Source: Leucosporidium creatinivorum
Lineage: Eukaryota > Basidiomycota > Microbotryomycetes > Leucosporidiales > Leucosporidiaceae
Assembly: GCA_001600635.1 (NCBI GenBank)
Contig: BCKL01000010.1
Span: forward strand, 743,573 to 807,572
DNA: 64,000 nt
Direction: 5' to 3'
Positions 3,617-37,664 of this stretch are shown here, piece after piece. Every line of letters starts with the position of its first letter. Within the stretch, counting starts at the first letter, position 1. The translations under genes were made by a program, and so were the position numbers. Below the pieces are notes generated by a model, which was given only the letters and a program-made list of their open reading frames with translations, made no database searches and had not been told where the DNA came from.

Positions 3617-3655
3617 GGTCCCCTGGCCCAGTGGCAAGGCGCCAGACTTCGATTA
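3617..3655 (+). pseudogene. 5' half of a tRNA-Arg(TCG) gene
   Basis: The 39 bases match the intact tRNA-Arg at 17398-17488 (other strand) from the acceptor stem through D arm and anticodon, apart from the first acceptor bases (GGTCCCC versus GCTCCCC). The match stops a few bases into the intron (after ...TTCGATTA) and the sequence then diverges into unrelated DNA. There is no 3' half nearby, so this cannot make a functional tRNA. Confidence 0.8.
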
Positions 3656-4606: not shown

Positions 4607-4685
4607 GTCTTTCCATCGCTCATTCAGAGATCAGGTAGCTAGCATGTCATACAACAGGTCTTTCCATCGCTCATTCAGAGATCAG
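4607..4685. repeat. Two exact 28-bp direct repeats, 51-bp period
   Basis: The 28-bp unit at 4607-4634 recurs exactly at 4658-4685, separated by 23 bp. The unit begins gtctttccatcgctcatt. Such a pair can arise by local duplication or from a target-site-like event. I found no element between the copies. Confidence 0.85.
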
Positions 4686-16700: not shown

Positions 16701-17178
16701 TCGAGCTGACCTTCAATCTCTTCACCAACACAGAGAAAATCCACGAGTCACTCAGCGCCTACCTCACCACCTACGCAGACGAGCTCGAGATGCACCCGCA
16801 ACGATTGCTCGCCGCCTTCATTTACGACCACACCAACTTTGCTCGTCATCTTATGGCGAACCTTGGTCCCGCCGTCTACGAGCTGTCGGATAAGGTCTTC
16901 CTCACGTCGGGTGAGTTGTCTTCTTCTCTCTGTGGAGCTGGAGTGCCGAGCAGGGCAGCGCCGAGCAGAGGCTGACCTCGAACCCCGCGAGCGCAGGTCA
17001 AACCAACGTCATCGACGCCAAGGTCTTCGCCGGACGCTCAGATGCGGTCGCAACCTGGCTCGAGCTCGGAATGGCCACGGCCGACGATTACAACGCCGTC
17101 AAGAAGAAGATGGTCGCGGAGGGACTCGGTTGGAGAGAAGCTGCAACGAGCTACTCGAAGGGAACGAGGGGAGAGTAG
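13773..17178 (+). CDS. Multi-exon protein of unknown function
   Basis: Exons run from ATG 13773 (MALLGAQQATNPLRDANG) to TAG 17178 (ending EAATSYSKGTRGE). Early exons encode GAWHSGAYDFQAF, TYYFAGNSNMVDYATEV and NLLFSLGDYSFNFILG. A low-complexity, basic linker follows (14.3-14.7 kb), where two frames are both plausible. The C-terminal half, from 14770 on, is continuous and looks globular: FIPDLSTWDGTNEQIVKEG, AGAFYKALMVSDRAILNAY, LWLHWYTSLTSSISGW and RLLAAFIYDHTNFARHLM. Introns are short with gtgagt or gtaagt donors. I recognise no domain. The start could be upstream if an extra exon exists. It neighbours the unassigned 5865-11098 gene but shares no sequence with it that I can see. Confidence 0.6.
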
Positions 17179-17397
17179 ACGGGTGGAGGGTAATTGAGTT
17201 TGATTTGTGCTATAACAGGACTCTGCCTGCCGAGAGCCAAGAAAGGGAAAGCGAGCTCAGACCGAGGCTGAGGGCAGCTCAAGCTCAAGCGCCGAGCGCC
17301 GAGATGTAGCCACCCTTGTCTCGGAGGCTGGCACAAAGGTGCGAGAGGGCTACAAAAAGTGGAACCGAGGCCTGTAGGTCGGTATGAGAGCAAAAAG

Positions 17398-17488
17398 AGC
17401 TCCCCGTGGGGATCGAACCCACGATCTCCAGATAGGACGTTCCGAGAGGTAATCGAAGTCTGGCGCCTTGCCACTGGGCCAGGGGAGC
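17398..17488 (-). tRNA. tRNA-Arg (anticodon TCG), with intron
   Basis: The acceptor stem is GCTCCCC paired with GGGGAGC. The D arm contains TGGCCCAGTGGCAAGG (A box) and the T arm GTGGGTTCGATCCCCAC (B box). The anticodon stem is CCAGA/TCTGG with loop CTTCGA, placing TCG at 17456-17454. About 19 extra bases after position 37 form a canonical-position intron. A CTTTTT tract directly downstream on the minus strand is a Pol III terminator. The gene appears intact and would read CGA codons (and others by wobble). Fragments of related tRNA-Arg genes lie at 3617, 21432 and 35103. Confidence 0.93.
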
Positions 17489-17984
17489 TTATGAATACAG
17501 CGTTAAAAAGAGGGTTATATGATATCCACTGCAAGCGTCGAAAAGTCGATCTCTGCCTTGCGAGATGGGTGAGGTGGGTGGCGAACGCCGAAGGAGCAGT
17601 TCGCGCTGGTCATTAATACAGAGTGTGGGTCGAGCGGTGCAGAGCAGTGAAGTGGGATTTGTGCTTGCTGCAATCCTTAACATGCTATTGCCTCTGGACC
17701 ACATGCCCTGGCCTGGGCGACTGGACAGCTCGGCGCGGATGGATCTCGCCGAGAGAGCCCCGACGAGAAGCCGTCGCGAAGGTGTGGTTCGGCTCTGATT
17801 TGCTTCCCGTACAGCTGCCATCGAAAAGTTGTAGCATTGTTGCATGAGAGCGGAGCGAGTTTGCCGTCGGCGTGACTTGCAAGCCCCCTGCGGGTTCTCC
17901 TCCACTCGCTGTAGCCTCCTCCTCTCCTCACCACAGGTAGAGGGAGCAGAGATGCAGTATATTGACACTACCTCACTAATACGT

Positions 17985-19777
17985 CTACACTCTCTGCGAA
18001 CCCGCCTCTCGCCTTCCCGAGTCCTTCGCCTCGCCCTCCTCCTCCGAAGACTCCTTCCCCTTCGCCCACTCAAGTTCTCCTGAACAGACGCGGGAGTAGT
18101 CGAAGGCGGAGTTGAAGGGAGAGTGGAGAAGGAGAGGAAGGGAGAGGAGGAAGGGAGGAAGGGATGAGGGGGAAGGGTGTGGAGTCGAGTGAGGTAGTAA
18201 ACTCTGAGAATGCGAGAACGAAGGTCGGTGAGAACGAAGTTCGGTGAGTGCGCCGAGAGAAGGGCACAGCAAGACCTCACCTCCTCCATGTTCGGTCTAC
18301 TGCCCAGTCGACAGCAAAGGCCGCCACCAGCGACGTTAGCAGGTCCGCCAAGCACTGCAGGAGCGCCGAGCATCAGCTCCGCCCGGCTGGTCGAGGAGAG
18401 GCACGGTCGACCTGTAGTCGCGCTCGTGTGTTGAAGTTGACGCCTGTGGAGGCAAGAAGGAGATCAGAGCTCTGTCGGGGAGAGACATGTTGAGACCTCA
18501 CCTTGACCTTCTCGGCGTCGGCCAAGGTGGTTCTGCCGGCGACGAAGCGTTCAGCGAGCACGAGCAGCGACGACTCACCGAGCTCATGGTGATGACCGTG
18601 ATGAGCACGACGAGGATGACGAGGTAGACGATGGCGATGAGCTCGAGTTCTCGAGTAGTTCTTGCCGAGGGGGCGCCATCCAGCCCGTTCCGCGCCGAGA
18701 GCTGCATCCGGGTCCGACGAGAAGGGCGCCTTGGTAAGCTGTTGTGAGAGGAGATATATCAGTACTTTGAGAGCAGGTTTTCCTGCGACTGTGCTGACGT
18801 ACCCCGAGGTCTGTGACGAGGTTCTTGACGAAGTCTTGCCGCCGAGTCGCTCCTCTCCAAGATCTCGTCGAGGCCCTGCGGATGAAAGGGGCACCGGTCA
18901 GCGTACTGTGCAGCTGTGGCGCTCCCGTCCGACCGCTCAAGCCCCAATGGGGTGCCGACAGGAATGACGAAGAGGGACGAGAAGGTCGAGAAGGAGCGCC
19001 GAGAAAGGGTGAGAGCTTACCATACGCTGATGCGGCGGTGCATCGCGAGGACGAGCATGACGATGCAGTGATGATGATCTCGGGGTTCATGGTCTTCTTG
19101 ATGCAGTAGATGAGGTAGATGGGGTAGATGAGGCTGCGAGCAAGGGAGCTGGTCAGCGAGCTGCACGATGCCGACGTCGAGGCTGTGCAGGCGATGCCGT
19201 CCATAGTCCAGCAGGTATCAGAGAGTGGTGTGCGCTTCCCATCACGGTCCCTCAGAGATCCCCCCCACCCGCTCGAGCTCGTCGCCGAGAGAGAATGACT
19301 CGACTCACTTGTACTTGGGCGCTCGTGTGATGCGTAGACCATGCTCGAATCCCAAGATGTAGAGCTCGACCTGTAGGGGTGCAGAGAAGGGCGAGAGAGG
19401 TTAGCTCATGCTCCTGCCCGTCAAGACGCGTCGCTGATGACCTCCCGGCTGGCTCCTCGCGCTCCTTATGAGCCTGGTCGCTACCGCCGAGAATAATACA
19501 GAGCACCAAAGCTGTCCGAGGTACGCCAGCGAGCCCGGGAACGGGCGAGGGAGATACGATGCGAGAGAGAGCTGGACGTACTCGACGATATAGGCCTCTG
19601 CGAAGGTGTAGGTCAGTTGGGGGGTGGGAGAAGGACTCACATGTACACCAATAGCATCTGCGAGGCAAGGAGCCAGTGCGAGGTCAGCGAGCGAGCTCAG
19701 CTGAGCCAGCAAGTCCCGCGTGGACTCTGTAGAGAGAACTGACCTGCAGCCATGGCTGGCAGCTCTGAGTAGGTCAT
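17985..19777 (-). CDS. Putative multi-pass membrane protein, reading frame uncertain
   Basis: From ATG 19777 the model reads MTYSELPAMAADAIGVH, then VEYVQLSLASYLPRPFPG and VELYILGFEHGLRITRAP, then a hydrophobic exon starting LIYPIYLIYCIKKTMNPEII. Further hydrophobic segments are CIVMLVLAMHRRIS, ELELIAIVYLVILVVLITVI and CLADLLTSLVAAFAVDW. Introns with good donors and acceptors separate them. The hydrophobic stretches do not all lie in one frame within their exons: apparent shifts fall near 19060, 18850 and 18650. Either the sequence has indel errors or the gene is damaged. At least four membrane spans are likely. The 3' end at 17985 (acidic Glu/Lys tail) is one of two possibilities. I do not recognise the family. 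Confidence 0.4.
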
Positions 19778-20298
19778 GACTCCGTGTAGCCCATGTTCCA
19801 CGAGATCGGGACCAGCGAGAGACGAGGTAGCTCAGAACGAGGAGATGTGGCGGAGGGCAAGCCTGGGAGGGGAGCTTCTCGCCCAAGTCGAGCGCTAGGG
19901 GTCGAGTCGAGCCGGCTGTAGCTGAGCGGCGAGGTTTCTCCTTTGGTGGGAGGCGACCAAGTCGAAGGTTCATCTAATCCTTCACCACTCCAGCGCCTCG
20001 AAAGGACGCTGAGAGTCGCGAGAGTCAATCGAACACGAACGCCGAGCCCCGAAGTTCGAACCAAGCTCGCGCTCATCCTCTTCTTAGCGTCGGACGACTC
20101 GGTGACAGCCTTGAGCCGCGCTAATCCTTCCATCTCACTAGCTGCCCGACAGAGATCATCTCCTCAGCTCAGAGCCACGCGCCGACTTCGCTTCGCCAGC
20201 GTGGAGAGGTCCAGAGCTGGACTATAGCACAGAGAACAGCAAAGCTTGCACAGCAGCAGGGTGGCGATAGTCGTGGATGTACAGAGAAGCCGGATCCT
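19778..20298. other. Spacer between membrane-protein gene and H3-variant gene
   Basis: This 521-bp stretch carries a minus-strand open frame (MEGLARLKAVTESSDAKK...) that could be a 5' exon of the membrane-protein gene. It ends in a stop before the exon at 19777, so I leave it out. It probably contains that gene's promoter and the 3' end of the histone-variant gene. Confidence 0.35.
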
Positions 20299-21117
20299 CT
20301 ACACATCACCGCGGAGACGACGAGCAAGTTGAAGATCTGAGGAAGGACGGTCGTCAGCTGGCTTCGGCGAGGAGTGGCGGACAAGGGAAGCAAGAACGGA
20401 CCCTTGACGTTGATGGTGATGCGCTTGGCATGAAGGGCAGCAAGATTTGCGCTGTAGATGTGTAGCAGTCCGTCAGCCCTCGGGGAAACATGTCGCGCAG
20501 ACGAGGAAGGGAGGGCTCACTCGCCGAAGAGAGAGACGAGATGCGCCTCAGCAGCTTCTTGCAAGATGGTGAAGGTCTGTCCCTGCCAGCGGAAGTTGGA
20601 TCCCAGGTCCTGAGCGATCTCGCGGACGAGACGAGCAAAGCTGTAGCAGTGCAGGGCCGGGTCAGCTCCCGCCCTCTGCTCGCCTGCCCTCCCCCCCCCG
20701 AGTGATCCCTCAGCTCAGCCGACTTACGCAGCCTTACTCATCAGGAGATCGGTCGTGAGCTGGTAGCGACGAATCTCACGGAGAGCAACCACACCGGGCC
20801 TGTTGTACAGCGAACGGGTTGTCAGGTGGAGCGCGACGAGCGAGCAGCGCATCGAGCCGAGTCGAGCGAGGACGCAGAGAGCTCACTTGTAGCGGTGAGG
20901 CTTCTTGGGCTGCCCACCACCTCCACCAGATCCAGCAGCTCCCCCTCCACCTCCAGTACCCCTTCCTGCTCCCGCTTGACGAGCTGCAGCTGCAACGAGC
21001 TGCTTGCGAAGAGCGACTCCTCCAGTCGACTTGCGGGCGGTTTGCTGCGAGGGACCGCTCAGTGAGGGTAAGGAGGGATTCTGTACTCGAGTAAGAAGTC
21101 ACCTTGGTGCGCGCCAT
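20299..21117 (-). CDS. CSE4: Histone H3 variant, CENP-A/Cse4-like
   Basis: Six exons (21117-21103, 21044-20887, 20799-20728, 20640-20521, 20451-20402, 20336-20299) join in frame to a 150-residue histone-fold protein. The N-terminus [14 protein letters not shown] is H3-like and is followed by a Gly-rich insert (about residues 31-50), then [20 protein letters not shown]. The alpha-2 region has [19 protein letters not shown], and the C-terminus is [18 protein letters not shown]. The Trp in place of the Phe of H3, the [10 protein letters not shown] core, the changed region before it ([14 protein letters not shown]) and the short divergent tail point to the centromeric variant, which replaces H3 in centromeric nucleosomes and recruits the kinetochore. 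Against this, the H3-like N-terminus is unusual for CENP-A and loop 1 is not lengthened. A non-centromeric divergent H3 is the alternative. Confidence 0.82.
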
Positions 21118-21431
21118 GTTGATACAGCCTGAGAGAAGCGAAAGGCGGAGGAGGTCAGAAACCAAGCCCTAGCTCGAGGGAGTGGCCCGACTTCGACCCT
21201 CTCCCTAGTCGGCCTAAGTCGAGGCTTCTTGCTGTACCAAACGCTGCTGGACGCCAAGCCACTTTTTGAGGTCATCTGTAGTAGTATTTGCACTTCTCTA
21301 CTACTACACAACATGTTCTCGACCCGCTCCAGCTCCCGAGCCACAGAAAGAGCCGGCGCGTGTTCACCTACATAAGGCGGCATGGGTGATGATCACCTAC
21401 AGGAGGGCCTGCATGGGTAAAGCCAATCTCT

Positions 21432-21452
21432 GTTCGACCCCCGCGGGGATCT
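21432..21452 (+). pseudogene. 3' end of a tRNA-Arg gene at the arm boundary
   Basis: The last 20 or so bases of a tRNA (T loop, T stem, 3' acceptor: GTTCGACCCC...GGGGATC) form the exact left end of the repeat arm. The rest of the tRNA is absent upstream. A CTTTTTGC Pol III-type terminator remains about 30 bp downstream. Confidence 0.75.
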
Positions 21453-22681
21453 AATGGCATACAAACCCTCAAACTTGCTTTTTGCTGCCCATACAGAGCT
21501 TCTAGAGCGGAGCTTTCGCGGCTCTACCTCCTTTTGCTGCGNGTNACAAGCTACAGGAAGCTCGGAATATAATGCTACAGTATCTAGCTACACGTGGGTC
21601 CCGCTCACTTTTTGTCTCGACCTCTTGATCATCTCCAACAGCAGCTTCAAGAGCTCGGCGAAGATGCCCTCCACCTCCGTTGCCCTCGCAACGGGTACAT
21701 CAGGGCGTGCTGAGGTCTGCAGAGGGGACATCAATGTGGATAAGTAGGTTTGTGAGCTGTGCGACACCTTCCTTAGCCAGGGAGATCCTCTGAAAGCTGC
21801 TTAAACTGCACCTGCCAGCGCCGAGTTCACCGCCGAGCGTCGCTCTCCGCCGTCAGCAAGTCCTGATACCTGTCTCGACAGAGTTACAGGCTTTCAGGAC
21901 TGTCTCTACCGGTGCTTGTACCTCTCACTGCCCGTCCTTTCCCTTCCACTTCGCTCTTTCGGCGCTCTTTAGTCGGCGCCCTCGGCGGCGGGCGGTGGGC
22001 AGACCCCTGAGACCAGAGACGACCGATCGCCTACAGATATGTACGCCTGGATCTGTACCAGCATATGAGGCGTCTCACAGCTTACGGCGGCGGCCATCGG
22101 ACTTTCAACCTCGCTGCTCGGACTTGCAACCTCGCCGAGCTTGACCACTCTTGACAAGCTTGCCGAGACCCGGAAACGAGCGCGGTGGTAGCACAGATGC
22201 TATTTTTTACGAAAGTCTCTCTCCGGAGCTTGGCGTATCCTACTCCAGCTTGTCACCTCGACTCTCTCACTTTCGGCGGAGCTCTCTCGGTCGACTCAAG
22301 CGCCCTCAGACGCTCAGATCTCGCTTACGCAACATTTTCGACTATACAACAAGAGCTCAGCAGGTCTCTCCTACTCACCCTCGTCTACTTTGCAGCAGAC
22401 CAGGACGAGAAACGACGGTTTCGCCCTGCCTCGAAAGACGAGCGAAACTCGGCCGCCAAGTTTGGACCACAGCGATCATCCCAGCTCTTCCACCACACTC
22501 TTCCTGTACCTCTACAGCTCCTTGCTTGCCCTGTTGCTCATGTATCGAGCCCACTACCGCGTCTTTCTGCGAAGAATCAGGCCTCTTCCCCCTTCACCCC
22601 TTACCGAGCCGAAGCCGAGCAGTGGAGAAGAGCGAGGAAAGAGATCAGCTTTGGCTTAGTTTCTTCGGTCTCGGTAGCAGG
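21432..22681 (+). repeat. Left arm of a 1,250-bp inverted repeat
   Basis: This arm matches 33873-35122 in reverse complement over 1,250 bp with no indel. By eye the copies differ only in the last 21 bp (three mismatches). Even the two ambiguous bases at 21542 and 21545 have mirrored Ns at 35012 and 35009. The arm begins within a tRNA-Arg 3' end and stops in sequence with no evident terminal repeat. It contains several open frames (for example 21454-21747 and 22151 on), none recognisable. I see no terminal TG...CA, polymerase, integrase or transposase motif, so it does not look like a known transposon class. Confidence 0.92.
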
Positions 22682-23233
22682 AGACGAAACGAAGCTTCGA
22701 AAGCAAGCTGCTCTCGTGGTGCCGTGAACTGGTGTCGAATGAAGCTTCGCCGATGCTGCCGTTATCGCTCTCGCTGGCTTCAGACTTCAAGCGGCCTGAC
22801 TCTCGCTCTCACCTTCTTCCCTATCCTCTCGCCCTCGATCTGAGCTTGATCAAGAGGCATTAAGATCACGAACCCTACCCTACGAATCCTATCGGAGGGA
22901 GGTAACAGCAAGAGGGGCCGAGACGAGGTCACCAACAAGTGAGACTTGACACTAGAGCGAGGGAGAGACTGAACAGCAGGGAGAGGTCAAGGGTAGACAG
23001 CTGGAGTGGTAATGAGGTAGACAAGCAAGGAAACGACAGGCGAGAGCGAAGGAGGGCGCAAGAGGTGTAAGAGGGAACATCTCGGCGAAGGGGAGAGGAG
23101 GGATCCTCGCCTCGACGGCGGTTTTTGCTATACAAGGGAGGTCGGGAGTGGAAAATTGAAAGCAGGGAGGGTGGTGGAGGAGGGAAGACGAAATCGGAGG
23201 AGGTTGCTGTGAAGGGAGATCGACTCGGCGAAC
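22682..23233. other. Spacer between repeat arm and NDT80-like gene
   Basis: This 552-bp stretch is just outside the inverted-repeat arm and downstream of the minus-strand NDT80-like gene. Purine-rich; I see no supported gene. It probably holds the 3' untranslated region of that gene. Confidence 0.45.
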
Positions 23234-26120
23234 TTAGCGCCTCGACGACCTCGTCCTCTTAGCGATGTTGAGGGTCTCGGTGTCGTAGTCGTCCCAGGTG
23301 ATGCTCCTCTTGCTGGTGGTGGTCGACTCCTCGAGAGCGGTCCCAGTCGAAGGTCCAGCGGCGTCGGTAGGGAGGGGAGGACCTCCCGACCTCCCTCTCC
23401 TCTGAGTCTGACCCAGCGCGAACGAGGCGAGGAAGCGGTCCTCGTCGTCCATCTCGTCCTCCGAAGAGGAGCACTCGCGCATAGTACCCCTCTTCCCCTT
23501 CCCGCTGGCCTTGGTCTTGGGCTTGCTCTTGCTCTTCCCCTGCTTCGTCTCCCCCTTCTCGCCCGCCCTCGCCGCCGAGGCAGTCATCTCCCTCCCCTTG
23601 GCAGTGACGATGCCAAAGTTCTTGGGGCTCCTTCCCCTGATGACAACCTCGCCACTCTCCCATCTCCCCACCTCGACCTTGGCTCCACCCTCCACCAGCA
23701 CGGCTTGCACGACGACTCGCATGCCGAACCTCGGGGTCATGCCGTCCACGCTCGACGCTCCGCTGGGATGGTTCGCGGTCGAGTTGCGGAACTGCACCCT
23801 GGTGAAGGGAGCGGTTGCCTTGCCTCCCCTGTCGAGCCTGGCGTACGAGCTGTGAAGTTCGAAGCGCGAGGGTTCGAGAGGAGTGGCGCGCTCGAGCTTG
23901 CGAGTGGTGTCGAGCTGGAGGAGAGGGACAGAGAGATGAGTCGGAAGGGTGAGAGCGATGGTGGTGGCGAGGAAGTGGGAGATCTTGGTCGCCGAGGTGG
24001 CGGAGGAGTGGAGGTAGAGCGAGGACGTTGGCGCGGGAACGACGACCGACGCCGAGAGAGACTGGTCAAGCCGAAGGAGGGTCAGCGAAGCCATCAACCA
24101 GCTCTAAGACGGCGAAGAAGTCTTACCATGTAGTTCCTGCGGTATCCAAGCCAAGCTGCGAGCTTTGAGTCGTAGGTGAAAGCAGGCGGCGAGATGGCGG
24201 GTTGGAGGTCGAAACTGCTCGGACGAGTGAGCGATCAGCGTTCGGCGTATCGAGCTGAACGTTGGAAAGGGCAGCTCACCTCAATCTTTGATCGTCAAAC
24301 ACCCTGCACAGTTGCTGAAACGGCCCGAAGAGAGACGTCGAAGAAGTCGACATCGCCCTCGGCGCCGAAACGGTCTCGAACTGCGAACTTCCCGAGGGCG
24401 CTGGTCCTCCACGAACGGGGGAAGAGGATTGAGGGGAAGAAGAGAGGGAGGTAAGACTCGACGAGTCGGAAGGTTGAGTCTTGACGGGCGAGCGACCTCG
24501 CGCAGGTGAGGCGGCCGGAGAGTGGTAGCGAGGTGTAGTCGACTCGGAGGGGCTGACGCGAGCGGAAGGGTACTGAGGGTTGAAGTTGAAGGTGGAAGAG
24601 GAGGAGTAGAAGTGCTGAGGCGAAGGGTCCAGGACTTTGGAGTCGAGCTGGCGTGAAGCAGTGTCGCCGACCTCAGCAGGTTCAGGCGACGAGGAGAGAG
24701 GACCGTCGTATCCGCCTCCACCCGTTGCTCCTGCTCCATACATCCTCATCCCGAATAGCTGCTCTGCGAACCTCAACTGATCGCTCTCCGTCTCCGCCTC
24801 CAGCTCCAGGGTAGAGTCCTGCTCGGCGCTGAGCTCGCCCTCCACTCCCGTCTGACCTCCACCTTCGGCTCTCTCGACGCCAATCTCCTGAGAAGGCTCA
24901 AAGAAGAACCTCTCGCTCTGAGTGAGGGGGTCGAGCTCCGCGAGCTCGCGTTGGAGGCGTGATCCGTCCCTCTCCTCGACGGCGTCGACCGCGTGCAGAG
25001 CGAACGGGCTCGTCGGGTCTGTCGACGCGCCCTCGTCTTGACTGGCACCTTCTCCAAAAGGCTCGTCTTGATACTCGCCGTGGAGCTCGTCTTGCTCTCC
25101 CGTCGCCGAAAGCGAAGGCTCGGCGGCCTCCCACTCTCCTCGCTCATCGCCGAGCGCCGAGGGGTGACCGAGGTCGAAGTAGGAGGAGGCGCCGGTGCCG
25201 TCGGAGCTATTGGTGTAGGTGCGAGGACGACAGGTGACGACGGAGGAGGCGGCACTTTGAGGTGACGGGAAGGAGTCCGGCGCCGAGGGGTAGGCCGAGC
25301 TCGGCGGCGGATGGTTGTAGTAGCCGTAAGCGAGCGTCGGAGGATGGTGTTGAGGAGCTGGGTGGTGGTTGTGGTTAAAGGTCGACCACGACTGCTGAGG
25401 CGAGTGAAGGAGTGGCTGAGGGTGCGCAAGCCAGCTGAGAGGGGGAGCGCCGTACGCCTCGCTCTGATTGTAGAGCGTAGAGTGACCGTATAGCACGGCG
25501 GGAGGAGGAGGAGTAGGATACGCTGGGAAGAATCCTTGCTGCCCGTCGACTTGGTGGTGGTAGGAATAAGCCCCAGCTTGAGGCCGAGCGTTGAGGTGGT
25601 GGAAGCGAGGATCGTAGCCGAGCTGAGCGAGCTGGTGTCCCTGAGCAGCCATGGCGGCCAGAGGATCTTGCGAGTAGTTTTGGGTGCTGTAGACGAAGCT
25701 GGAGCTGTAGGGGAGGCAGCCCGGAGCTTCGTCAGCCCCAAGCCAATCGGAGAAGCGCGAAGAGGGGCTACAGCCGTGCACTCACTTGGAAGGACCTGTA
25801 GGCGTGTAGAGCTGCTCATACGCTTTCTCCGAGTAGCTGTAGCCTCCTACATCTCTCTCATCTTGACCGTTCTCCCACGAAGCCATGATCGAGTCGCACG
25901 AGCGCTCCTGCTCCTCGTTGAAGCTGTAGCACGATACCGGAGTAGGCGGAGCGGCTGTAGAGCGAGTCGAGGAAGGTCTGTAGGTGACGAGAGATGCTCC
26001 TCCGGCTGCTGGAGAAGTGGCGGCGAGTGGCAGAAGCAGGACCACGACTCGCCCGCTTTGACCTTCGGGCGCTCGAACCCCTCGCTGGCTCATCTTGATC
26101 ACGGGCATCTTTCTCAGCAT
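23234..26120 (-). CDS. NDT80/PhoG-type transcription factor
   Basis: A four-exon model gives a protein of about 890 residues: exon 1 ends ...EQLYTPTGPS, exon 2 is a long Tyr/Gln/Pro/Ser-rich activation-like region, exon 3 holds LAAWLGYRRNYM, and exon 4 carries the rest. The C-terminal third resembles the NDT80/PhoG DNA-binding fold: YRRNYM then SLSASVVVP, PFTRVQFRNSTANHP, RFGMRVVVQAVL and the signature VVIRGRSPKNFG. The C-terminus is Lys/Arg-rich (a possible nuclear signal) and ends AKRTRSSRR. In ascomycetes such factors control meiosis, starvation or drug responses; the role here is unknown. The start could be any of three in-frame ATGs (26120, 26108 or 26093). The family call rests on the fold motifs. 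Confidence 0.82.
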
Positions 26121-26626
26121 CTCCGAGCGAAGCTGAGCGGTGTAGGCAAGATGTAAAAGGAGCTCAAGAGTCGCTTTTGCATCTCAGAGCATGCACTCCA
26201 GCTCAACGCCCGAAGCCGAGCCAGGCCTTCGATATCCCTCTCGACTCAGAGGGCCGAGAGCGGGCGTCACTGAGCTACAGATCGCTAGGATGGGTATATG
26301 AGAGCAGTGTATGAGCCTAGAGCTGCACGTGAAGCTCGAGGTACTCCTTAGAAGTCAGCCTGACGTCGAGGAGGTCGGCGATTGTCGAGGCGACGCCAAC
26401 GCCGAGATCGGGCTAACAGCGCTGAACGGTTGAACAGCTGCAGAGAGCTCGGGTCGTCTGTCCAGCGGCGTAGAATAATCCACTATGTATCCGATCATGC
26501 TGTCTTGTCTTTACAAAGCCGAGCCTGCACTCAGTAGCAGCTTGACCGAGCTCGCGGCACTTTCTCGGTCTCTCCTTTTCTCGCCTCTAGGTGCAGCGTA
26601 TCAAGCGAAGCGGGCGGGTTCTTCGT
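26121..26626. other. Intergenic spacer upstream of the NDT80-like gene
   Basis: This 506-bp stretch should contain the NDT80-like promoter and the 3' end of the next gene. I see no other feature. Confidence 0.45.
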
Positions 26627-28422
26627 TCAGTAGTCGCTATAAAACTCCCTTGTGAACCTTCCGTCCACTTTGCTGCACATCAAAGCCTTCTGGCCACGAT
26701 CCTGCCAGTCGATGACACGCCAGCGGAACTCGATCCTCTGCACACAGGGCAAGTCACGCTCTACCATCATGAGAAAGACGGCGATGCGGGGGTAGCGAAT
26801 GGCGAACGAGATTTCGTCGGACTCGCTCAGCCGGCGCGGCGGGAAGGCTTCGAGAAAGCCGGTGAGGGAGAGGATGGTGAGGGAGGGAAAGCGGGAGAAG
26901 AAGGCGCGGAGGGCGAAGGATGTACTCTGCGACAGAGACGACGCAAGAACAACGGAAGTCAGCGAAGATCTAGCCCTCGTCTCTTGAGAGCGCTCACCTC
27001 CGAAATGAGCGACTTGAGTTTCTCGCCGTGGCCGCCGAACTTCTGGACGGTGGCCACGAGCTCGAGGTTGGTGATGCCATGAACTATAGGCCACGATTCG
27101 AGAGAAGAGAAAGAGATCGAGCTGCTGAGGGCTCCAAAGTTCTCGATCTTGAGGTGGCGAAGGTTCGGCGAGTGCTCGGTGAGGAGCGCAAGAAGGTCGC
27201 CGAGAACGTACTGCGCGGTAGTGGGGGTTAGCGCTCGAAGATCCACAGAGATTCCAGAGGCGGGAAGACAGCTCACCCTTCGCGAGGAAGCCAGCAGCCT
27301 ACGATTCTGCTCATCGCCCTGCGCTTCCTCGGCTGTCGCTGGTTGAAAGACTCGCCACACCGACACCTCCAAGCGCTCGAGAGGCAGCGTAATAGAACGT
27401 TTCCTCTCCATCCGCATGGACATGCCTTGTCAGTCAATGAGGCCCGTGAACAAGTGAGGGAGGCAGACTGACCAACCTGATCTGATCCGAGATACCTCGG
27501 TAGAGCGAGTACGGCAGCCTCAAATCAGGGTTTGCGCCCCTGTCATACTCGATGAACACTCCAACACCCTGCAGCTTGATCACACGCAGCGACTCGAGGC
27601 AGGGTGCGAGCAGCGCCGCGATGGTAGCGCCTTCACTCACGCCGAGGAGCTCGAGCATCGTCAACGAGGCCGTAGGTCGCGCTTCGATCACCTGCGATCT
27701 ATGCGAGAAACTCCCTTGAGTCGACGTAAGAGTCGAGGGCTCCATCCAGTCGTGCAGCGACAGCGATTGGAGGGAAGGGACGGCCTCGCGCAAGTTGAAG
27801 TCGTCCGGGAACTCGCAACGCCAAAGGGTAAGCATTCGGAGATGCTTGAGGTGCATTAGGGGATTGGAGATGATGGTCGGCACTTGAGGAAGCCCAACGT
27901 CGTCCGTGTTCTCGTCGAAGACGAATTCGAGGACAGTGAGGCGAGAGAGCGAGCTCATAAGGAGGTAGCCGAAGTGGTAGTAGTGTAGTCGTGTCTCGGC
28001 AGCAGGTCTGTCAAAGAAGATGTAGAAATCGCGGATGAGTCGAGCGCCTCCGGGGTGGTCACTCAGTTGCATGAGAGCCTCGCCGATCTCCACGTTGTCG
28101 CAGTGCAGGCAGTAGGTGCGCCAGAAGACGGGGGTAGCAGCTGCGTAAAGTCGACGGCTGCACAGGCGCAGAGAGCTCAATTCCCGAGAGCAGCTCTGCC
28201 TGTCCTGAAGTCCTTCGGCGAAGAGGAGAAGGAGCTCATTCGAGAGGTCGAGAAGCGTGGGATAGCCAGACGGGGTGTTGCTGCTGTGTGCAAGTTCAGA
28301 GATAGTAGTCAGCGTCTTTCTGTACGTACCCTGCCGCTGAAGTCTCTCGCTCAGCCGCTCATGAGGTCAAGTCCTCCGTTCGGCGAGCGACAAATGAGGA
28401 CTCACCGAGCGTTGGCCGGCAT
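26627..28422 (-). CDS. F-box-like protein with leucine-rich repeats
   Basis: The model starts at ATG 28422 (MPANAR), splices over an intron of about 130 bp to SNTPSGYPTLLDLSNELLL, and continues through two large exons to TGA 26627. The F-box-like start is LLDLSNELLLLFAEGL followed by SSLRLCSRRLYAAATPVFW. Degenerate Leu-rich repeats follow (LKHLRMLTLWRCEFPDD, LTMLELLGVSEGA, LRHLKIENFGAL, FPSLTILSLTGF). Proteins of this kind usually serve as substrate receptors of SCF ubiquitin ligases, and basidiomycetes carry many lineage-specific copies. The last exon ends with a polar segment. No specific substrate can be named. Confidence 0.75.
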
Positions 28423-28888
28423 CGTCGATTTGAGAGCGCGGCCCTTATTTAATCGATGAACCCCACACGTCCTGACCTTCTGCCGAACAGTGAGCGAAGA
28501 GTCGGAGAGAGGTCGAAGGAAGAGGGAAGCCTGAGCGCCGAGCTGAGCTTCTACGAGATCGGGCGGAGGGTCAGCGAAGAGGCATCAAGCTACAGAGGTG
28601 ACTAACCACCTTCGTACGAGTAGCAGCTGCACCAGAGCTCGAGCTTTTGCACCGAACGAGAGCGAACGTCAACAGGGTCTGTGCTCGGGGTCGAGTTGCA
28701 GTCGAGTAGCTCTTCAGTTGTAGTCCAGCAGCTTCCAGATCGAGCAGTCGGCGGTGAAAAGGACGAAAGCGAGAAACGACAGCAAGTTGTAGTCGAAAGG
28801 CAAGCCTCGAAATNGAGCCTCGCACCTCTTGCCTTCTCGCCGCATCTCATCTCGTCACAGCGGTTACAACTTGCTCGGCTACAACAGC
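28423..28888. other. Divergent spacer between F-box and DUF7918 genes
   Basis: This 466-bp stretch separates two divergently transcribed genes and likely holds both promoters. It contains an ambiguous base at about 28814. Confidence 0.5.
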
Positions 28889-30677
28889 ATGGCAGAGNAG
28901 TCTAGCAGTACTAAGATNTAGGTAGGGCGCGTACAGAGCTCNCAGACTGTAGCTGAACCCTTCTACGCGCGCTCTCTCTTCACAGCTCGTCGGGCNAGTT
29001 CTCCGCCGCCGTCTCTGTGCACAACAAACCGCTCGCCGTGTACCAAGTCGAGCACGAAGAGGAGGAGCGCAAAATCACCTGCTACATCGAAGCGCACGGT
29101 GGCGACCACTTTAGCGTCGTACACACCAACGACGGCGAGAAGCCCAGCTCGGAGGAGCGCGAGTCGAAGGGGGCGACTGCGTGGGACGTGTCGACCTACT
29201 TGGATGGCGTCAAGGTCGGAGGTGTTGTGTATGGTGTCGAATCGCTCATCTACGACCAGCCGAAGGGAGAAGCCCGTGAGCAGCGACTCAAAGGCCATCA
29301 AGACTCTTCGGTTCGTCTCTGGAGCTCGGTCGAGCGTTTACGAGCGCGCTGATACTCGCACTCTCACAGAGCACCTACCAGCCCTTCATCTTTGCCCAAC
29401 TCCGTCTGACCAACAAGGAGGAGAAGGCCTGCACCGACCCCAACCATCTCGACGCTCTCGGCACGAATCAAGTTCGCATCACTCGCGTCGAAGCCAACTC
29501 GCTGAGGGAGTGCACGAGCGAGGCGTACCGTCCACTCGTCGAACTTGAGGATTATGAGAAGGACAAGATCGAGAAGAAGGAGCTGAGCTACCAGACCAAG
29601 TCAGTGCAGCCTCCTCCGCTCTTGCCGGCTCGGCGCTGACCCTTCCACCTCTCCGTGACCACCATCCCCAGGCACGGCCCATCTCTCACTGCCTGCGACA
29701 CCCGAGTCTCGTGTCACCTTCGAGCTCATCGACCCCGTCGACAAGCCCTATCTCACGCTCGAGTTCCGCTACCTCTCCAAGGGTCAGTCGAACCTCCCTC
29801 TTCCTGCTGTAGACCAAAAGAGCTGACGCACTCTCCTCGCACATCTACTACAGCTCTCCTCCAGAAGCTCGACATCTTCGCCCACGAGTCGTCAGGCCTC
29901 TCCTCAGTCTCTGGCGACGAGTCGACGACGCTCAAGAAGGAGTCATCGCCCGAGCTCGGCGTCGGTCAGGCCCTCAAGAGCATCGACCAGAAGCCCGCCC
30001 TACCCGCCGCTGCACCCAAGACGGTCTCCAAGCCCAAGCTCAAGCCTCTCGACATCAAGCCGAGCTTCAAGGTCGAGCAGGACGTCAAGCCGAGCAGCTC
30101 GGAGAAGCACAAGGCCGCTCCGAAGGACAAGCCCAAGACCAAGCTCAAGGCTCGCGTCATCCAAGAGCTCGAGTTGTCGGAAGGAGAAGGAAAGAAGGTT
30201 GTCGCGTCGTCGTCCAAGCCGAAGCGGCTTCCCACCACCGCCGCGCCGAAGAAGCAGTCGACCTTTAGGCCGCTCGTCCCCAAGCCTAAGGCTTCCACCT
30301 CCTCTGCCCAAGACGACCACATCGTCCACTACATCTCCGACTCGGGATCCTCCGACGTCGAAGTCGTTCTTCAGCCTTCCACCTCCAAGCCCAAGCCCTC
30401 GGCTGCTCCTGCGCCGACGAGGAGGGTCAGCGTCGCAGATCCTGCAGCCAAGGTCAAGGGTCGGCTCGGAGTGAGGAAAGGCAGCACGAGCAAGGGTAAG
30501 GGAAAGCGTCCTCCCAGCTCGAGCGACGACGATATCGAGGAGGAGGACCGAAAGCCCGCCGTCAAGTCGGCGCCCAAGAAGAAGAAGGTCAAGCGCGAGT
30601 CGACCCCTCCTCTTCTCACAACGAGCACCGTTCGGCCTAAGTGTACCGCAAAACGAGACCAAACTGGTCCCTACTGA
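28889..30677 (+). CDS. DUF7918 domain-containing protein
   Basis: The likely start is ATG 28889, followed by an intron and then FSAAVSVHNKPLAVYQVEH. The N-terminal half matches the pattern I know for the basidiomycete DUF7918 domain: a beta-rich module with CYIEAHGGDHFSVVHTND, VSTYLDGVKVGGVVYG, TYQPFIFAQLRLTNKEE and LGTNQVRITRVEAN. The C-terminal half is Lys/Ser/Pro-rich with acidic patches (SSDDDIEEED) and many basic clusters, as in nuclear proteins. The first exon and the acceptor region contain three Ns and the first exon has an apparent stop, so the exact start is uncertain. The end at 30677 may be premature, because matching-looking C-terminal sequence occurs at 31.7-32.1 kb. Function unknown. 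Confidence 0.65.
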
Positions 30678-31699
30678 GCATTTCGAAGGCGTAGCTACGC
30701 AGAGATAACTAAATAAATGAATGAGTGGGGAGAAAGAACTACACAAATGAGGNAAGGAGAGTCGAGCNAAGCGAGAGGGNGGTGGGAGGGAAGATCAAAA
30801 GCGAAGAGGGCGCTGCTCTGAGTCTGAGTGAGCGAAGCGAAGGTGGTTAGTACGCTGTGATACAGCTGTGNCCANCCACNCGAGCAGCGCGAGCTCACCT
30901 GAGTGAGCGAAGCGANGGCTGAGGCTGCTGATGATCTCGGAGAGGGAGAGCGCGGGGGCGGTCTGTAGGAGGAGGGATCGTTAGCTGACAGAGCTTGAGC
31001 TGCTGAGCGAACGAAGACCTACGTCAAGGAGACGAGGTAAGGCGGAAGGAGAGCTCGAGGAGGACGGACGACTAGAGCGGGCGTCTGTGCGTCGAGAGCG
31101 AAGTCAGCAGGAGCCTGAGCGCCGAGCNAAGATGAAAGCATACAGGAAGAGCCTGCAATGGAGTAGCGACGACGGACGACGATGAGGAGAGAGAGGNAGA
31201 GTCGACNGGCGTCGCCCACCGAGTTGGACCGCCTCTTGGAGCCAACGAGGCTTGTCGCTCAAAACGAGCGTGAGATGGCTGCTCGGTTGGAAGTGAGCGA
31301 CTGCGGTGCGGGCTCGGGAGCCTGAGCGGACGTACCAAGGTACATGACNAGCCCAAGCGCGGGCGCTCGAGGCATGCGAAGGAAGAGGAAGGGGACGACC
31401 GAGGGTCTGCGAGACGAAGAGCTCGAGGTCAGTGGTTGACCGGAGAGAGCGAGGGCGCTGGGCCCGGAACTGCAGCACTACCGGAGTAGAGCTGGACTCC
31501 GGAGAGCCGACTTGAAGTCTCGGAAGACCAACGCCTGAGCGCCTGCGCCTGAGCGCCCAAGTCCGAGTTCGGCGAAGCCCTGGGGCTGACTCCGGAGAGC
31601 GGGCAGACCGGAGCCAGCGGCGACCTGGGTCATGAGAAGATGGAGACGAACGTACAGAAGCATCGTAGTGAGAACTGATGCGCCAGCTCCCGTCCATCT
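30678..31699. other. N-rich stretch without a reliable gene
   Basis: At least ten ambiguous bases lie between 30750 and 31350. On the minus strand, hydrophobic and basic segments (for example LVGSKRRSNSV, LLIVVRRRYSIAGSSCM) with splice-like signals hint at a small membrane protein starting near 31662, but the frame breaks repeatedly. I cannot support a model. The quality of the sequence is the limiting factor. Confidence 0.3.
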
Positions 31700-32115
31700 C
31701 GCCCGCCAGCGAATACCGATCTCCTCGACTCCCCTACCTCGCCCAAGACGGAGAAGACCCTCAACTCGACTTCAACTCCCATCACCGACCCTCAGTCCCT
31801 CTACACCACCCCTCACCCAAAGCCCAAGCCTCAGGCGAAGAAACGCCCTCTCTCACCCACCGACCACGAGGACGTCTCCCGAGTCGCTTCGCTCCGTCCT
31901 TCAAGAAGATCAAGAAGGAGCCCGAGCAGGAGCTTGACGGCGAGAAGCTCGGCGGAGCGGGAGACGAAGCCAAGCCCAAGGTAGGCAGCTCGCCCGAGAC
32001 GGAGGAGAGCAAGGGCGGCGGCGGCGGCGGCGGCGGCGGTGCAGGACCCTCGGCGGTCAAGATGGAGGAGGGCAGGGAGGTCGACAAGTTTGCCGTGCTG
32101 AAGACTGAGCACTGA
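31700..32115 (+). pseudogene. Orphan C-terminal exon, possibly of the DUF7918 gene
   Basis: An open stretch encodes TDLLDSPTSPKTEKTLNST and KKRPLSPTDHEDVSR, then, after a one-base frame change near 31890, SFKKIKKEPEQELDGEK and an ending EVDKFAVLKTEH. The KKRPLSP and KKIKKEPE patches are typical of the C-terminal tail of DUF7918 proteins. No upstream domain is attached. It may be the true 3' part of the 28889-30677 gene, separated by inserted or misassembled DNA, or the remains of a second copy. Confidence 0.4.
32011..32041 (+). repeat. GGC trinucleotide tract (poly-Gly)
   Basis: An uninterrupted run of about nine GGC triplets encodes Gly in the orphan exon. Such tracts vary in length by slippage. 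Confidence 0.85.
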
Positions 32116-32390
32116 GAGGGGAGAGAAGGTGAGTTGTCGCGCCTTCTTGACGAGGTTCGCCGAGCGCCTCACTAACTCGACTCCGTTTACGCAGGGCAGG
32201 CTTTGCTGACAGAAGGGATGAGACTTGCTGCTTACAATACATCTCTGAGCTCTTGACCTTGTGACACACACGATGCTACGTCGCAGGCGGGCCCGACTCG
32301 CGAAGAAGACATCTGCACTCCCAGCTTCGTATGCCTCACCGCGTCTATAGAGCGGATTGGAAGCGCCTCGTTACAGCTCTATGCCTGCTC
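32116..32390. other. Convergent 3' spacer
   Basis: This 275-bp stretch lies between the orphan exon and the 3' end of the F-box gene. Nothing further seen. Confidence 0.4.
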
Positions 32391-33652
32391 CTAGACGCCG
32401 TCGACCGGGCTCACTCGTTCACCCTCTCCCTCGGCCGTCTCCCTCCCCTTCAGCTCTGTGGCCTCCATCCTCCTCACGCACTCCCAAAATCCTTCATCCC
32501 ACACCGTCCCTTGTCCCTCCTCATCCCTCTCCCACCTGATCCGCAAAGCTTTCTCCTTTGCCCAACTCCTCAATCCCTCGAACGCCGCCGCCGTCGAAAG
32601 CCGAAGCGGCAGGATCAGCTCCTTGAGCTCGGAGAGGCGAGCTTCGTGCGCGCGAAGACCTGGCGTAAGAACGTCAGAGCCAAAGAAGTGGCCGGAGGAG
32701 ACACGGAGGTGGCGAAGGGAAGAAGGGAGGGCGTCAAAGGCGGAGGGGTTGCGCAGGTATTCGACATCGCAGTGGAAGAGGAGGAGATCCTGCACCGAGT
32801 TCCGATCGATGGTCGCATCGCTGTTGCGGAGGGAGAGGGCCTTGAGAGGAGGGAGGCAGCAGGGTGGTGGATGGTGCGCTAGCATGGGAGGTACGTGTAT
32901 GGCGAGCGCCGAGACTGTGGGCAAACGCAAAGCGAAGCGCAGCTCCCCAGATTGAAGATGAGCGTTGCCGTCGAGGAAGAGATGCCGAAGGGGGACGTTG
33001 AGCTGGCTGAAGTGGCCTGGATCGTCCACTAGTGAGTCCCAGATGGCGAGCGACTCGAGTTCTGCACGAAGAAGGATCAGCTCCGTCGGGGCTTGGTAGG
33101 GAAAGCTCGTAAATGGGCCTACTAGTCGCGGAAGCAATGTCTTGCTCCTGTACCATGTCCATCCGGCCTATCTGCAGACTCTGGAGATTCGTGCAGCGCC
33201 GAAGAATCTCGCCGAGCTGATATTTCGAGGCGTCGCCGTCAAAGCCCGCGAGCTGTCCTTCCCACTGTGACCCAAGCCGGATCGTGTTGACGAGGTTTGA
33301 CAGTCTGGCGGCTCCAATAGCATCCTTGAAGCGAAGCGCGGAGTCGACGGTGCGAAGAACGACATCGCCGAAGAGTTGTGGTTGGTACGTCTCGCGCCAT
33401 CGACGGCAGACACGAGCGAGGGAGCAAAGGGTTGATTTCCTCACTGCCCATTGGTCGTAGCCGGGAGGAGGTACAGCGAAGTCAAGGATGAGCTGGACGA
33501 GCTCGAGAGGTAGCGAGGGAAGAGCATGGGCGATTGAGGGCTCGAGGTTCGCTGGGCCGGGCGGTGAGCTGCATAATCGATATATTAGCTTGGTCTACGC
33601 TCGCTGAAGCGCCTGTAGCTCACCTTGGCGCAGAACACGGAGAGACGGCCAT
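32391..33652 (-). CDS. F-box-like/LRR protein (paralogue of the 59-kb pseudogene)
   Basis: Starts at ATG 33652 (MAVSPCSAP). A phase-2 intron (33622-33571) leads to the F-box-like segment LPLELVQLILDFAVPPPGYD and LCSLARVCRRWRETYQPQLF. Degenerate Leu-rich repeats follow: LRRCTNLQSLQIGRMD, LESLAIWDSLVDDPG, LSELKELILPLRLS. It ends with WDEGFWECVRRMEATE and a charged tail, stopping at 32391. The protein is about 380 residues. SCF-type substrate receptor is the usual role of this architecture. The gene lies between the right inverted-repeat arm and the orphan exon. Its closest relative in the window is the broken copy at 58946-60223, on the other strand. Confidence 0.75.
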
Positions 33653-33872
33653 CACAAGGGGAGAGCGCGCGAAGTCGAGGCAGCTTGAAAGGGTGTAGCC
33701 GGGTATTGTAGAGCAGCTGCGTATCCAGTAGTCCTCGAGTAGCGTGTCTGCGTTTCTGCAGCTGGTTCAGGTGGTCGAGGAGAGCGGCAATACGGCAGGA
33801 AGCGAAGGGTACCGGTCAGCTCGACTTTCTGCCTCACTTGGAACTGTAGCTCATCATAGCTCCGACACATTG

Positions 33873-35122
33873 CCTGCCACTGAGACCGAAGGAACTAAGC
33901 CAAAGCTGATCTCTTTCCTCGCTCTTCTCCACTGCTCGGCTTCGGCTCGGTAAGGGGTGAAGGGGGAAGAGGCCTGATTCTTCGCAGAAAGACGCGGTAG
34001 TGGGCTCGATACATGAGCAACAGGGCAAGCAAGGAGCTGTAGAGGTACAGGAAGAGTGTGGTGGAAGAGCTGGGATGATCGCTGTGGTCCAAACTTGGCG
34101 GCCGAGTTTCGCTCGTCTTTCGAGGCAGGGCGAAACCGTCGTTTCTCGTCCTGGTCTGCTGCAAAGTAGACGAGGGTGAGTAGGAGAGACCTGCTGAGCT
34201 CTTGTTGTATAGTCGAAAATGTTGCGTAAGCGAGATCTGAGCGTCTGAGGGCGCTTGAGTCGACCGAGAGAGCTCCGCCGAAAGTGAGAGAGTCGAGGTG
34301 ACAAGCTGGAGTAGGATACGCCAAGCTCCGGAGAGAGACTTTCGTAAAAAATAGCATCTGTGCTACCACCGCGCTCGTTTCCGGGTCTCGGCAAGCTTGT
34401 CAAGAGTGGTCAAGCTCGGCGAGGTTGCAAGTCCGAGCAGCGAGGTTGAAAGTCCGATGGCCGCCGCCGTAAGCTGTGAGACGCCTCATATGCTGGTACA
34501 GATCCAGGCGTACATATCTGTAGGCGATCGGTCGTCTCTGGTCTCAGGGGTCTGCCCACCGCCCGCCGCCGAGGGCGCCGACTAAAGAGCGCCGAAAGAG
34601 CGAAGTGGAAGGGAAAGGACGGGCAGTGAGAGGTACAAGCACCGGTAGAGACAGTCCTGAAAGCCTGTAACTCTGTCGAGACAGGTATCAGGACTTGCTG
34701 ACGGCGGAGAGCGACGCTCGGCGGTGAACTCGGCGCTGGCAGGTGCAGTTTAAGCAGCTTTCAGAGGATCTCCCTGGCTAAGGAAGGTGTCGCACAGCTC
34801 ACAAACCTACTTATCCACATTGATGTCCCCTCTGCAGACCTCAGCACGCCCTGATGTACCCGTTGCGAGGGCAACGGAGGTGGAGGGCATCTTCGCCGAG
34901 CTCTTGAAGCTGCTGTTGGAGATGATCAAGAGGTCGAGACAAAAAGTGAGCGGGACCCACGTGTAGCTAGATACTGTAGCATTATATTCCGAGCTTCCTG
35001 TAGCTTGTNACNCGCAGCAAAAGGAGGTAGAGCCGCGAAAGCTCCGCTCTAGAAGCTCTGTATGGGCAGCAAAAAGCAAGTTTGAGGGTTTGTATGCCAT
35101 TAGATCCCCGCGGGGGTCGAAC
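33873..35122 (-). repeat. Right arm of the 1,250-bp inverted repeat
   Basis: Reverse-complement copy of 21432-22681, same length, mismatches seen only at its inner 21 bp. At its outer end the arm continues into a longer tRNA-Arg remnant (35103-35179), so this arm appears closer to the ancestral arrangement than the left arm. The 11.2 kb between the arms carries four genes. Recombination between the arms would invert that segment. Confidence 0.92.
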
Positions 35123-35179
35123 CCGCGATCTCCAGATAGGATGATTCTATGTAATGATCGAAGTCTGGCGCCTTGCCAC
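35103..35179 (-). pseudogene. 5'-truncated tRNA-Arg(TCG) remnant
   Basis: From GTGGCAAGGCGCCAGA the sequence keeps the D-arm 3' side, an anticodon arm with TCG (35161-35159), a tRNA intron different from that of the 17.4-kb gene, variable region, T arm and 3' acceptor GGGGATC. The first 13 or so bases (5' acceptor strand and half of the A box) are replaced by unrelated sequence. The acceptor stem cannot pair and the A box is broken, so function is unlikely. Confidence 0.8.
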
Positions 35180-35587
35180 GGTCGGCCGAAGTTCTGCACC
35201 TCTTCAGAGCTTCAGGCGAGGACAGGGCACATGCTACGAACTCTGTGTAGCGTACAGAGTGACTAAGAGTCTCTACAGTCGTCTGAGACGCCGTACAGCT
35301 GGCTTGGGCTGGGCAGGAGAGACAACTCGCACCCTCGGCGCCAGTGCTGAGGTCAGGACTTGAGACTGGCTAGCTCTCGCGTAGCTGATCTACTACTCTC
35401 ACCTCATCATCCTCATGATTCGTCGTGCCCTCCACCCGTTACAGAGGACTAATCACCCTTCATAGCCCACCGCCGAGCTCATCAGCGCCATGGCAGGTCG
35501 ACCGAAGCGAGGCTGTGGGCTAGCGCCGGGCATTGTGGGCAAGACCAAGGTAGAAATGACGATAAAGTGCACATCCTCCAGCTACGA
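35180..35587. other. Spacer between repeat arm and UBX gene
   Basis: This 408-bp stretch has no supported gene. It should contain the 3' region of the FAF2-like gene. Confidence 0.45.
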
Positions 35588-37664
35588 CTAGTCCTCCTCC
35601 TCCTCCTCGTCGCTAGTCGTCTCCCCCAAGCTAATCCTCCGCTGCTCCAGCCCCTCGACGACCAAGCTCGCATCGGGGGCGAGCCACCCAACCTGCTCCA
35701 CTGTGCGACTACCCGCATCGCCGTCAATGTCGAGCATGTGTCGAGGGAAGGTGGCGGCGAGGCGGAAGGCGTAGATGTGCTCGTAGTCGGTCGGCGGGGA
35801 TGCTAGGAGGAGAGGACAGAGCGTCAGCGAGACCCGAGCCTACGAGACTCGATGCTGGCAAAGGTAAGGCCGAGATAGCTCACCTAATCTCTCGCCATCG
35901 TCGACCTCCAATGCACACTCAACGAAAGCGTACACACGCTCGACCGTCTCGGCGCTGCCGAACTTCCTCACTGCCCGCCGTCCATCTCCCAGCCGTACAC
36001 CCACCCTCGCCGTCCCCTTCTCCCCATCTCTCGGCTCCGCCTCCTTCTCCAACACCCCCCTCATCCACGCCCTCCACCGCCGACCTCCATCCCTCAACCT
36101 CGCCGCTTCAGCCTCCTTCCTCGCCTTCTCCTCTTTCTCCCTCTTCTTCCTCCCTTCCTCAGCCCGAGCTTTTACTACCCGCTCCTCATCCTTTCTCGCA
36201 GCAGCAGCGTACGCCCGATCCTGCTCCTCCCTCAACCGCCGCTCAGCCAGTCGAGTCTCCTTCTCTCCGCGCAGGCGCTGCAGAAAAGGACGGACGCGGG
36301 GGAGGACGACGGTGTTGAGTTGTGTGAGGAGGGTCGCGGCGGAGGTGGCGGTGGAGGGAGAGCCTTCGAGGCGGGAGATGACGGACATGAGAGGTGAGGA
36401 GGAGGAGGCTGAGTTGGGAGGGGGCTGGAGAGCGATGAAGGCGATGAAGGGGAGGGAGTACTGGTGAAGGAGCTTGGAGGCTGCGAGGGAAGTGAGGGTC
36501 AATATTTGATATTAGAGCGCCAGAAAGGGACAGCGCCGAGGAGAGCTCACCTTGGTAGGCGTCCTTGTCCCTCGTATCTCCACCCCAGACGACAATACTT
36601 TCCCTCGCAAGAGTCTTGGTAAGCTCCTCATCCGTGAGGACAGCCCTGCACAAGTGGAGAGGGTGTCAGTCTCGCTACAGGTCTCGGCTCGATGTGAACG
36701 CCGAAATTCACTTCTTCAGCTCCTCATCATACTGGTGCTCATCGCAAGTCAAGACGACCATGAGCACCTGTATATCGTCCTTGGCCTTCTTGACCGCCTG
36801 CTCATAGCCACACGCCTGAAAGTCGAGCAGCGTCCGAACTCCCGCTCCACCTGCACCAGCGCCTCCCCTCCTTTCCAATCCGCTCGAGCTGGAGCCAACC
36901 GCCACGCTCGAGCTAGCAGCACCGTCGTTCCTCCTTGACCAGCGAACCGCACCGGTGAGCTCTTCGACGGAGCGGATCCACCGTTCTGCGGCGCGGGCGG
37001 GGGAGAGTTGGGCGCGAGAGGGGGAGGAGGAGAAGGAGGGGCGGAGGGTCCAGACGGCGCCGGGACGGAGGTTGAGCAGGCGGGCTATCGTGAGGTGATT
37101 GTTAGTGGTTTGCTCGAGGTGCGAAAGGCTTCAGTACACACCGATAGCGCCGAGCAGAATCCCGACCGGCCACGAGATGAGTGTCAAGGGCAGCGTGACA
37201 AGCTATAGAAGGGCAGACGAGTCAGCAGTGCGCTACAGCGATGCTCATCGATAGCTTCACTCACCTGCCTGATCCACCACAGCGGCCCTCCTCCTCCCGG
37301 CTGGCCAAACGCGCCCGTCGCTGGCGGCATTCCAACCTGGCTGTCATCAATCCCAAACTGGTCCATCAATGGCCGTTCCTCCTCTTCCTCCTGCTCTGCT
37401 CTACCACTGCTGCCTGCTCCTGCTCCAGGTTCCCGGTCGTAGATCTTGGAGATGGCGGCCTGGGAGGAGGAGAGCGACGTGGGGGTCAGCCTTCTCTCCT
37501 CAAGTGCAGCTGTAGCTCAGCAAGAGTAGGCTTACGCTGAGATCCCAGTTGGTAGATTCGAGGATGGTCGTCGCCGTGTCCAAGTCCTCGGTAGCGGTGA
37601 TGGACTGGAAGGAGGCCAGAGTGTCGCGCTGGGAGGCGCTCAACGAGTCCAATAGATCCGCCAT
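35588..37664 (-). CDS. FAF2/UBXD8-like UBX-domain protein (ER-associated degradation)
   Basis: Multi-exon gene from ATG 37664 (MADLLDSLSASQRDTLASF) to TAG 35588 (ending TSDEEEEED). Residues 8-43 form a UBA-like domain. A hydrophobic hairpin (WWIRQLVTLPLTLISWPVGI, then LLGAIG) follows. Next comes a thioredoxin-like UAS domain (FQACGYEQAVKKAKDD, IQVLMVVLTCDEH, ESIVVWGGDTRDKDAYQ, LLHQYSLPFIAFIALQ), a long charged coiled coil and a C-terminal UBX domain (ARVGVRLGDGRRAVRKF). This is the UBXD8/FAF2 (Ubx2/Ubx3) domain order. Such proteins sit in the ER membrane or on lipid droplets as a hairpin and recruit Cdc48/p97 to ubiquitinated substrates. The acidic tail is a lineage feature. Confidence 0.88.

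Follow-up and report, generated by a model that had tools for sequence, protein, structure and literature searches.

Origin of an 11.2-kb gene segment bounded by inverted arms is the question raised by this locus: how did two near-identical sequences, both reaching into a tRNA-Arg 3′ end, come to stand on either side of it, and does the pair record copying of one locus into another, the spread of a mobile element, the long maintenance of an old repeat or an error of assembly? We compared the window (the whole 64-kb stretch of DNA that was analysed) against itself using BLASTN and obtained a single inverted match, in which positions 21432–22681 (left arm, + strand) align with 35122–33873 (right arm, 33873–35122, − strand) over 1,250 bp without gaps and at 99.76% identity. 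The likeness is far beyond chance, and these are the only two copies of the arm in the window. The three mismatches (22662, 22673 and 22676) all fall within the innermost 21 bp, which confirms the preliminary description of arms of equal length that differ at three positions confined to that edge.

Arms and neighbouring genes

The analysis draws on this window, on protein and RNA family databases and on published work. The window has a G+C content of 59.4%, and its genes are intron-rich and of fungal type. Both arms are intergenic. On the left, the arm separates the 5′ end of a gene for a CENP-A-like histone H3 variant from the 3′ end of an NDT80-like gene; on the right, the other arm separates an F-box-like gene that starts at about 33652 from a UBX-domain gene with its 3′ end at about 35588. 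The four arm junctions have four different flanks. In the unique 11.2-kb segment between the arms (22682–33872), Pfam identifies the NDT80-like gene (23234–24094, − strand), a DUF7918 gene (about 29008–29250, + strand) and the F-box-like gene (about 32394–33652, − strand), the last of these weakly, at 22 bits against a cutoff of 24.3; gene starts and ends here were read by eye. This agrees with the gene content previously listed for the segment, except that the second of the two F-box genes named there has no support in our searches. F-box-like paralogues do occur at 32394–33594 and 59004–60220, on opposite strands and diverged, with 46% over 110 amino acids at best. Elsewhere in the window, positions 4607–4685 contain an exact 28-bp direct repeat with a spacing of 51 bp (GTCTTTCCATCGCTCATTCAGAGATCAG).

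The gene to the left of the repeat (20299–21117, − strand; Pfam Histone, 6.9 × 10−13; spliced by eye) has its ATG at about 21117, and its upstream region adjoins the left arm, which begins approximately 315 bp upstream. Compared with H3 chains, the product gives a value of 9 × 10−44, and its best PDB matches are ordinary H3. The protein has a nearly canonical H3 tail and a glycine-rich insertion, the gene has about five introns, and the motif FRWQ stands where H3 has LRFQ. Tryptophan at this position is typical of CENP-A, and we assign the product to CENP-A putatively, by motif only. To the right of the repeat, the 3′ part of the UBX-domain gene (35588–36600, − strand; Pfam UBX, 1.6 × 10−6) has its 3′ end facing the tRNA relic described below.

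Six-frame scanning detected no Pfam domain in either arm. No Rfam family was detected in either arm; the best match, obtained under permissive thresholds, scored 18 bits where the cutoff is 40, which is sub-threshold noise, and on this basis a known RNA was rejected. Open frames of 180–230 amino acids are present in the arm, none of them with a Pfam match, and a gene in the arm was rejected as a candidate on these grounds; the hexamer score of the arm (0.07) is no bar to coding, as it is not separable from those of the genes here (F-box, 0.21; DUF7918 region, 0.23; NDT80-like, 0.07; UBX, 0.03). Across 18.0–36.0 kb, a six-frame Pfam scan, which can miss multi-exon genes, yielded only histone, NDT80, DUF7918, F-box and UBX, and no transposase, integrase or polymerase. 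The scan and inspection of the ends bear out the earlier observation that the arms are free of transposase, polymerase and terminal repeats of a known class.

tRNA-Arg sequence at the outer ends

The window has one intact tRNA, a tRNA-Arg(TCG) that contains an intron (17397–17488, − strand; ARAGORN; Rfam RF00005, 52.6 bits) and that a default bacterial run of ARAGORN labels tRNA-Ile, the intron being ignored. A second, 5′-truncated tRNA-Arg(TCG) sequence lies at 35102–35179 (− strand); its alignment to this gene starts in the D loop, takes in an intron and reaches the 3′ end (83% over 78 nt to 17398–17474). It is a relic, because the 5′ acceptor arm and A box are missing and no tRNA model matches within 33700–35400 even at E ≤ 5; default ARAGORN likewise reports the tRNA at 17397–17488 and none at the right arm. 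The last 21 nt of the relic (35102–35122) lie inside the right arm and the remainder extends beyond it to 35179. The left arm contains those last 21 nt only (21432–21452, + strand), its outer end falling between the first and second bases of the B box (G/GTTCGACCCC, the slash marking the arm end). The tRNA-Arg 3′ end that had been reported in both arms is thus present, and on the right tRNA-Arg-like sequence does continue, but what continues is a relic rather than a gene, and the share of the left arm is confined to the part following the first base of the B box.

Because the relic keeps its intron and the tRNA pieces have no CCA, we consider it a DNA-level copy and not a reverse-transcribed tRNA. 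The intact gene at 17397–17488 is likely to be its sister or parent. The alignment of the two runs past the tRNA through a T-run and about 15 bp more, with a 25-bp insertion just after the tRNA; taken by itself, the 3′-flank match is equalled by 7% of controls, and a shared 3′ flank is suggestive only. A third tRNA-Arg fragment of the window, at 3619–3655 (+ strand), is an exact 37-bp copy of the tRNA-Arg(TCG) 5′ half, including the first intron bases, and breaks off abruptly into unrelated sequence. Pairing would be possible between its acceptor bases (GGTCCCC) and GGGGATC of the arm; this potential, with both pieces on the + strand, prompted the idea of a tRNA-Arg split by a 17.8-kb insertion (3655 to 21432). 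We set that idea aside as a curiosity, because such a tRNA would lack about 30 nt and because it also fails to explain the longer relic at the right arm.

Four tRNA-Arg pieces in 64 kb (3619–3655, 17397–17488, 21432–21452 and 35102–35179) would suit the suggestion, made in the preliminary description, of a small element that uses the tRNA 3′ end as its boundary, the arm then being one copy of such an element or of a dispersed repeat, and ambiguous bases in the arms (see below) could derive from further copies of it. This suggestion fared poorly and we regard it as highly improbable: the window holds two copies only, no target-site duplication was found around either arm or around the whole structure, and the arms have no terminal repeat, no open reading frame with a known domain and no RNA family. 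Moreover, the right copy continues into the tRNA rather than ending there, as is expected of a truncated-copy pair. A 28-mer from the arm has no exact match in viral contigs, which carries little weight as fungal genomes were outside the search. Slimmer still is the prospect that the arm represents a mobile, non-coding and as yet uncharacterised unit of this fungus, with further copies in the genome of which the mirrored ambiguous bases would be a trace; such a unit would either carry the tRNA-Arg 3′ end, here spanning the B box to the discriminator, or target it. Two familiar kinds of element were rejected. With neither a transposase in the scan nor a target-site duplication, the locus does not fit a DNA transposon with long terminal inverted repeats; with the A-box 5′ part lost, CCA absent, the intron kept and again no target-site duplication, it does not fit a tRNA-derived SINE or retroposed tRNA.

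Arm ends, ambiguous bases and the age of the repeat

The two outer ends are unequal, in that tRNA sequence runs beyond the arm end on the right side only. Owing to this asymmetry the right locus is the likely donor, and the left arm, whose outer end alone cuts the tRNA sequence short, would be the shorter derivative. At the inner ends, 22661–22681 (+ strand) and 33873–33893 (− strand) are identical at 18 of 21 positions, and a search of the rest of the window that allowed 5 mismatches gave no further copy of this 21-bp motif. By simple arithmetic the chance of an 18/21 match is about 10−8 at each offset, and a genome tens of megabases in size could provide one. The 21-bp end may have served strand invasion as a short stretch of homology, or it may be the edge of an older repeat that has eroded. 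Beyond the arm ends there is little or no homology, with most comparisons not significant: local alignment of the outer flanks gave nothing significant, and for the inner flanks a strict 250-bp test gave a score equalled by 1% of controls, looser scoring a score equalled by 17%, and anchored tests no significant homology.

These results bear on whether the inverted repeat is instead old, with its arms homogenised by gene conversion (concerted evolution) and its 14%-diverged 21-bp inner edge lying too near the end for conversion. At the inner end, full identity gives way abruptly to an 18/21 match, which is in keeping with such a history, as is the weak strict-score signal in the inner flanks, and there is a precedent in Saccharomyces, in which the flip/flop arms are homogenised within strains (PMC9731477). 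However, the inner-flank signal is missing in the looser and anchored tests, and the outer end has no diverged edge and stops abruptly inside the tRNA. We therefore consider maintenance by conversion unlikely.

The ambiguous bases of the window complicate any dating of the repeat. All 20 are single and fall inside 21432–35122, the 13.7 kb bounded by the arms, in four clusters (21542–21545, 28814–28996, 30753–31349 and 35009–35012). Sixteen of them surround the DUF7918 gene in two clusters (28814–31349), and the approximately 50 kb outside the repeat-bounded segment has none. The left-arm positions 21542 and 21545 (21542–21545) are mirrored exactly at 35012 and 35009 in the right arm (35009–35012). 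It is known that some short-read assemblers retain unresolved single-position alternatives (ALLPATHS-LG eFASTA, PMC6434015); new here are the confinement of all ambiguous bases to the repeat-bounded segment and their exact mirroring in the arms. That the same two positions arose independently in both arms is not credible. The mirroring thus indicates that the arms share one pooled consensus, as occurs when reads of near-identical copies are pooled, and arm identity is consequently not independent evidence of recency. The true identity may be slightly lower than it appears, and the mirrored bases make any argument from exact identity to a single recent event a weak one. For the proposal that a tRNA-linked segment was copied and inverted recently, copying and inversion are the best-supported reading, and it is the word recently that is weakened.

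The same pattern, with every ambiguous base within the 13.7 kb and those in the arms mirrored, could also arise if a short-read assembler had produced the second arm or had merged different versions of the segment. We find this decidedly unlikely, as the pooling of reads from two genuine, near-identical copies accounts for the mirrored bases just as well, the junctions have four different flanks, and an assembler duplicating one copy would not invent three mismatches between the inner ends. There may be extra copies, or the assembly may be partly collapsed, and the ambiguous bases, which form only three independent clusters, are no more than suggestive of a sample that contained different versions of the segment, as an extra copy, in a second nucleus or in both orientations.

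A probable copied inverted duplication and its potential to flip

The explanation that we favour, and hold to be somewhat probable, is a local inverted duplication of intergenic DNA, in which the right locus was the donor and ectopic repair or template switching made the left arm as its copy. At the right locus, between the UBX and F-box genes, an older duplicate of tRNA-Arg(TCG) would already have decayed to the 5′-truncated relic. A break would later have occurred at the left locus, between the CENP-A-like and NDT80-like genes, and the broken left end would have paired with the right locus through the 21-bp imperfect match. About 1.23 kb would then have been copied toward the tRNA, head-on to tRNA transcription, until copying halted at the tRNA B box, the direction of copying and its stop each being read from one junction. 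The copied end would have been joined to the other broken end without homology and without a target-site duplication. The inner ends are consistent with this copying, as they consist of an 18/21 imperfect match beyond which similarity ceases in most tests; so are the lack of a target-site duplication and the intergenic nature of the arms, which are without Pfam domain or Rfam family. The B box is the binding site of TFIIIC. Against a stop at this position, the B box belongs to a relic, from which TFIIIC binding may have been lost. Against the copying model as a whole, the strict inner-flank score (1% of controls) possibly reflects a remnant of older homology outside the arms.

Copying of this kind has parallels elsewhere. 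In yeast, tRNA genes are approximately threefold enriched at rearrangement breakpoints and sites of gene gain, for which fork stalling at tRNA genes is the proposed cause (PMC2675101). As in those cases, a duplication or rearrangement junction lies at a tRNA gene sequence, whereas here it is a single case, resolved to the base pair, and it is the B box of a pseudogene at which the junction falls. A likeness also exists to origin-dependent inverted-repeat amplification and fork template switching, in which inverted copies arise by replication-coupled template switching. Short inverted repeats underlie those models, and triplications are their usual outcome, whereas we observe one insertion-like inverted copy, 11 kb away.

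Once formed, the 1.25-kb inverted repeat could flip the 11.2-kb segment and homogenise its own arms. On Saccharomyces chromosome XIV, the flip/flop region consists of 24 kb between near-identical 4-kb inverted repeats that contain a tRNA-Ile gene and sporulation genes; the repeats are homogenised by recombination, and inversion recurs over evolutionary time (PMC9731477). The defining arrangement of that system, near-identical inverted arms flanking unique genes, is found here too, again with tRNA sequence in the repeat, and by this precedent flipping of the segment by recombination is plausible (PMC9731477). The two differ in that the arms here are 1.25 kb and apparently non-coding rather than 4 kb and gene-bearing, and in that a tRNA relic cut by the arm end takes the place of a tRNA-Ile gene.

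Overall, the inverted duplication at a tRNA relic is genuine; repair is its most likely source, and it has the potential to act as a flip/flop switch. If real, it provides a base-pair-resolved example of a copied segment that ends exactly at a tRNA B box, which fits the role of tRNA genes as breakpoints, and it adds another fungal gene segment that is bounded by a tRNA-containing inverted repeat and that may flip. Such a flip would alter the upstream neighbourhood of the CENP-A-like gene beyond the arm that lies about 315 bp away.
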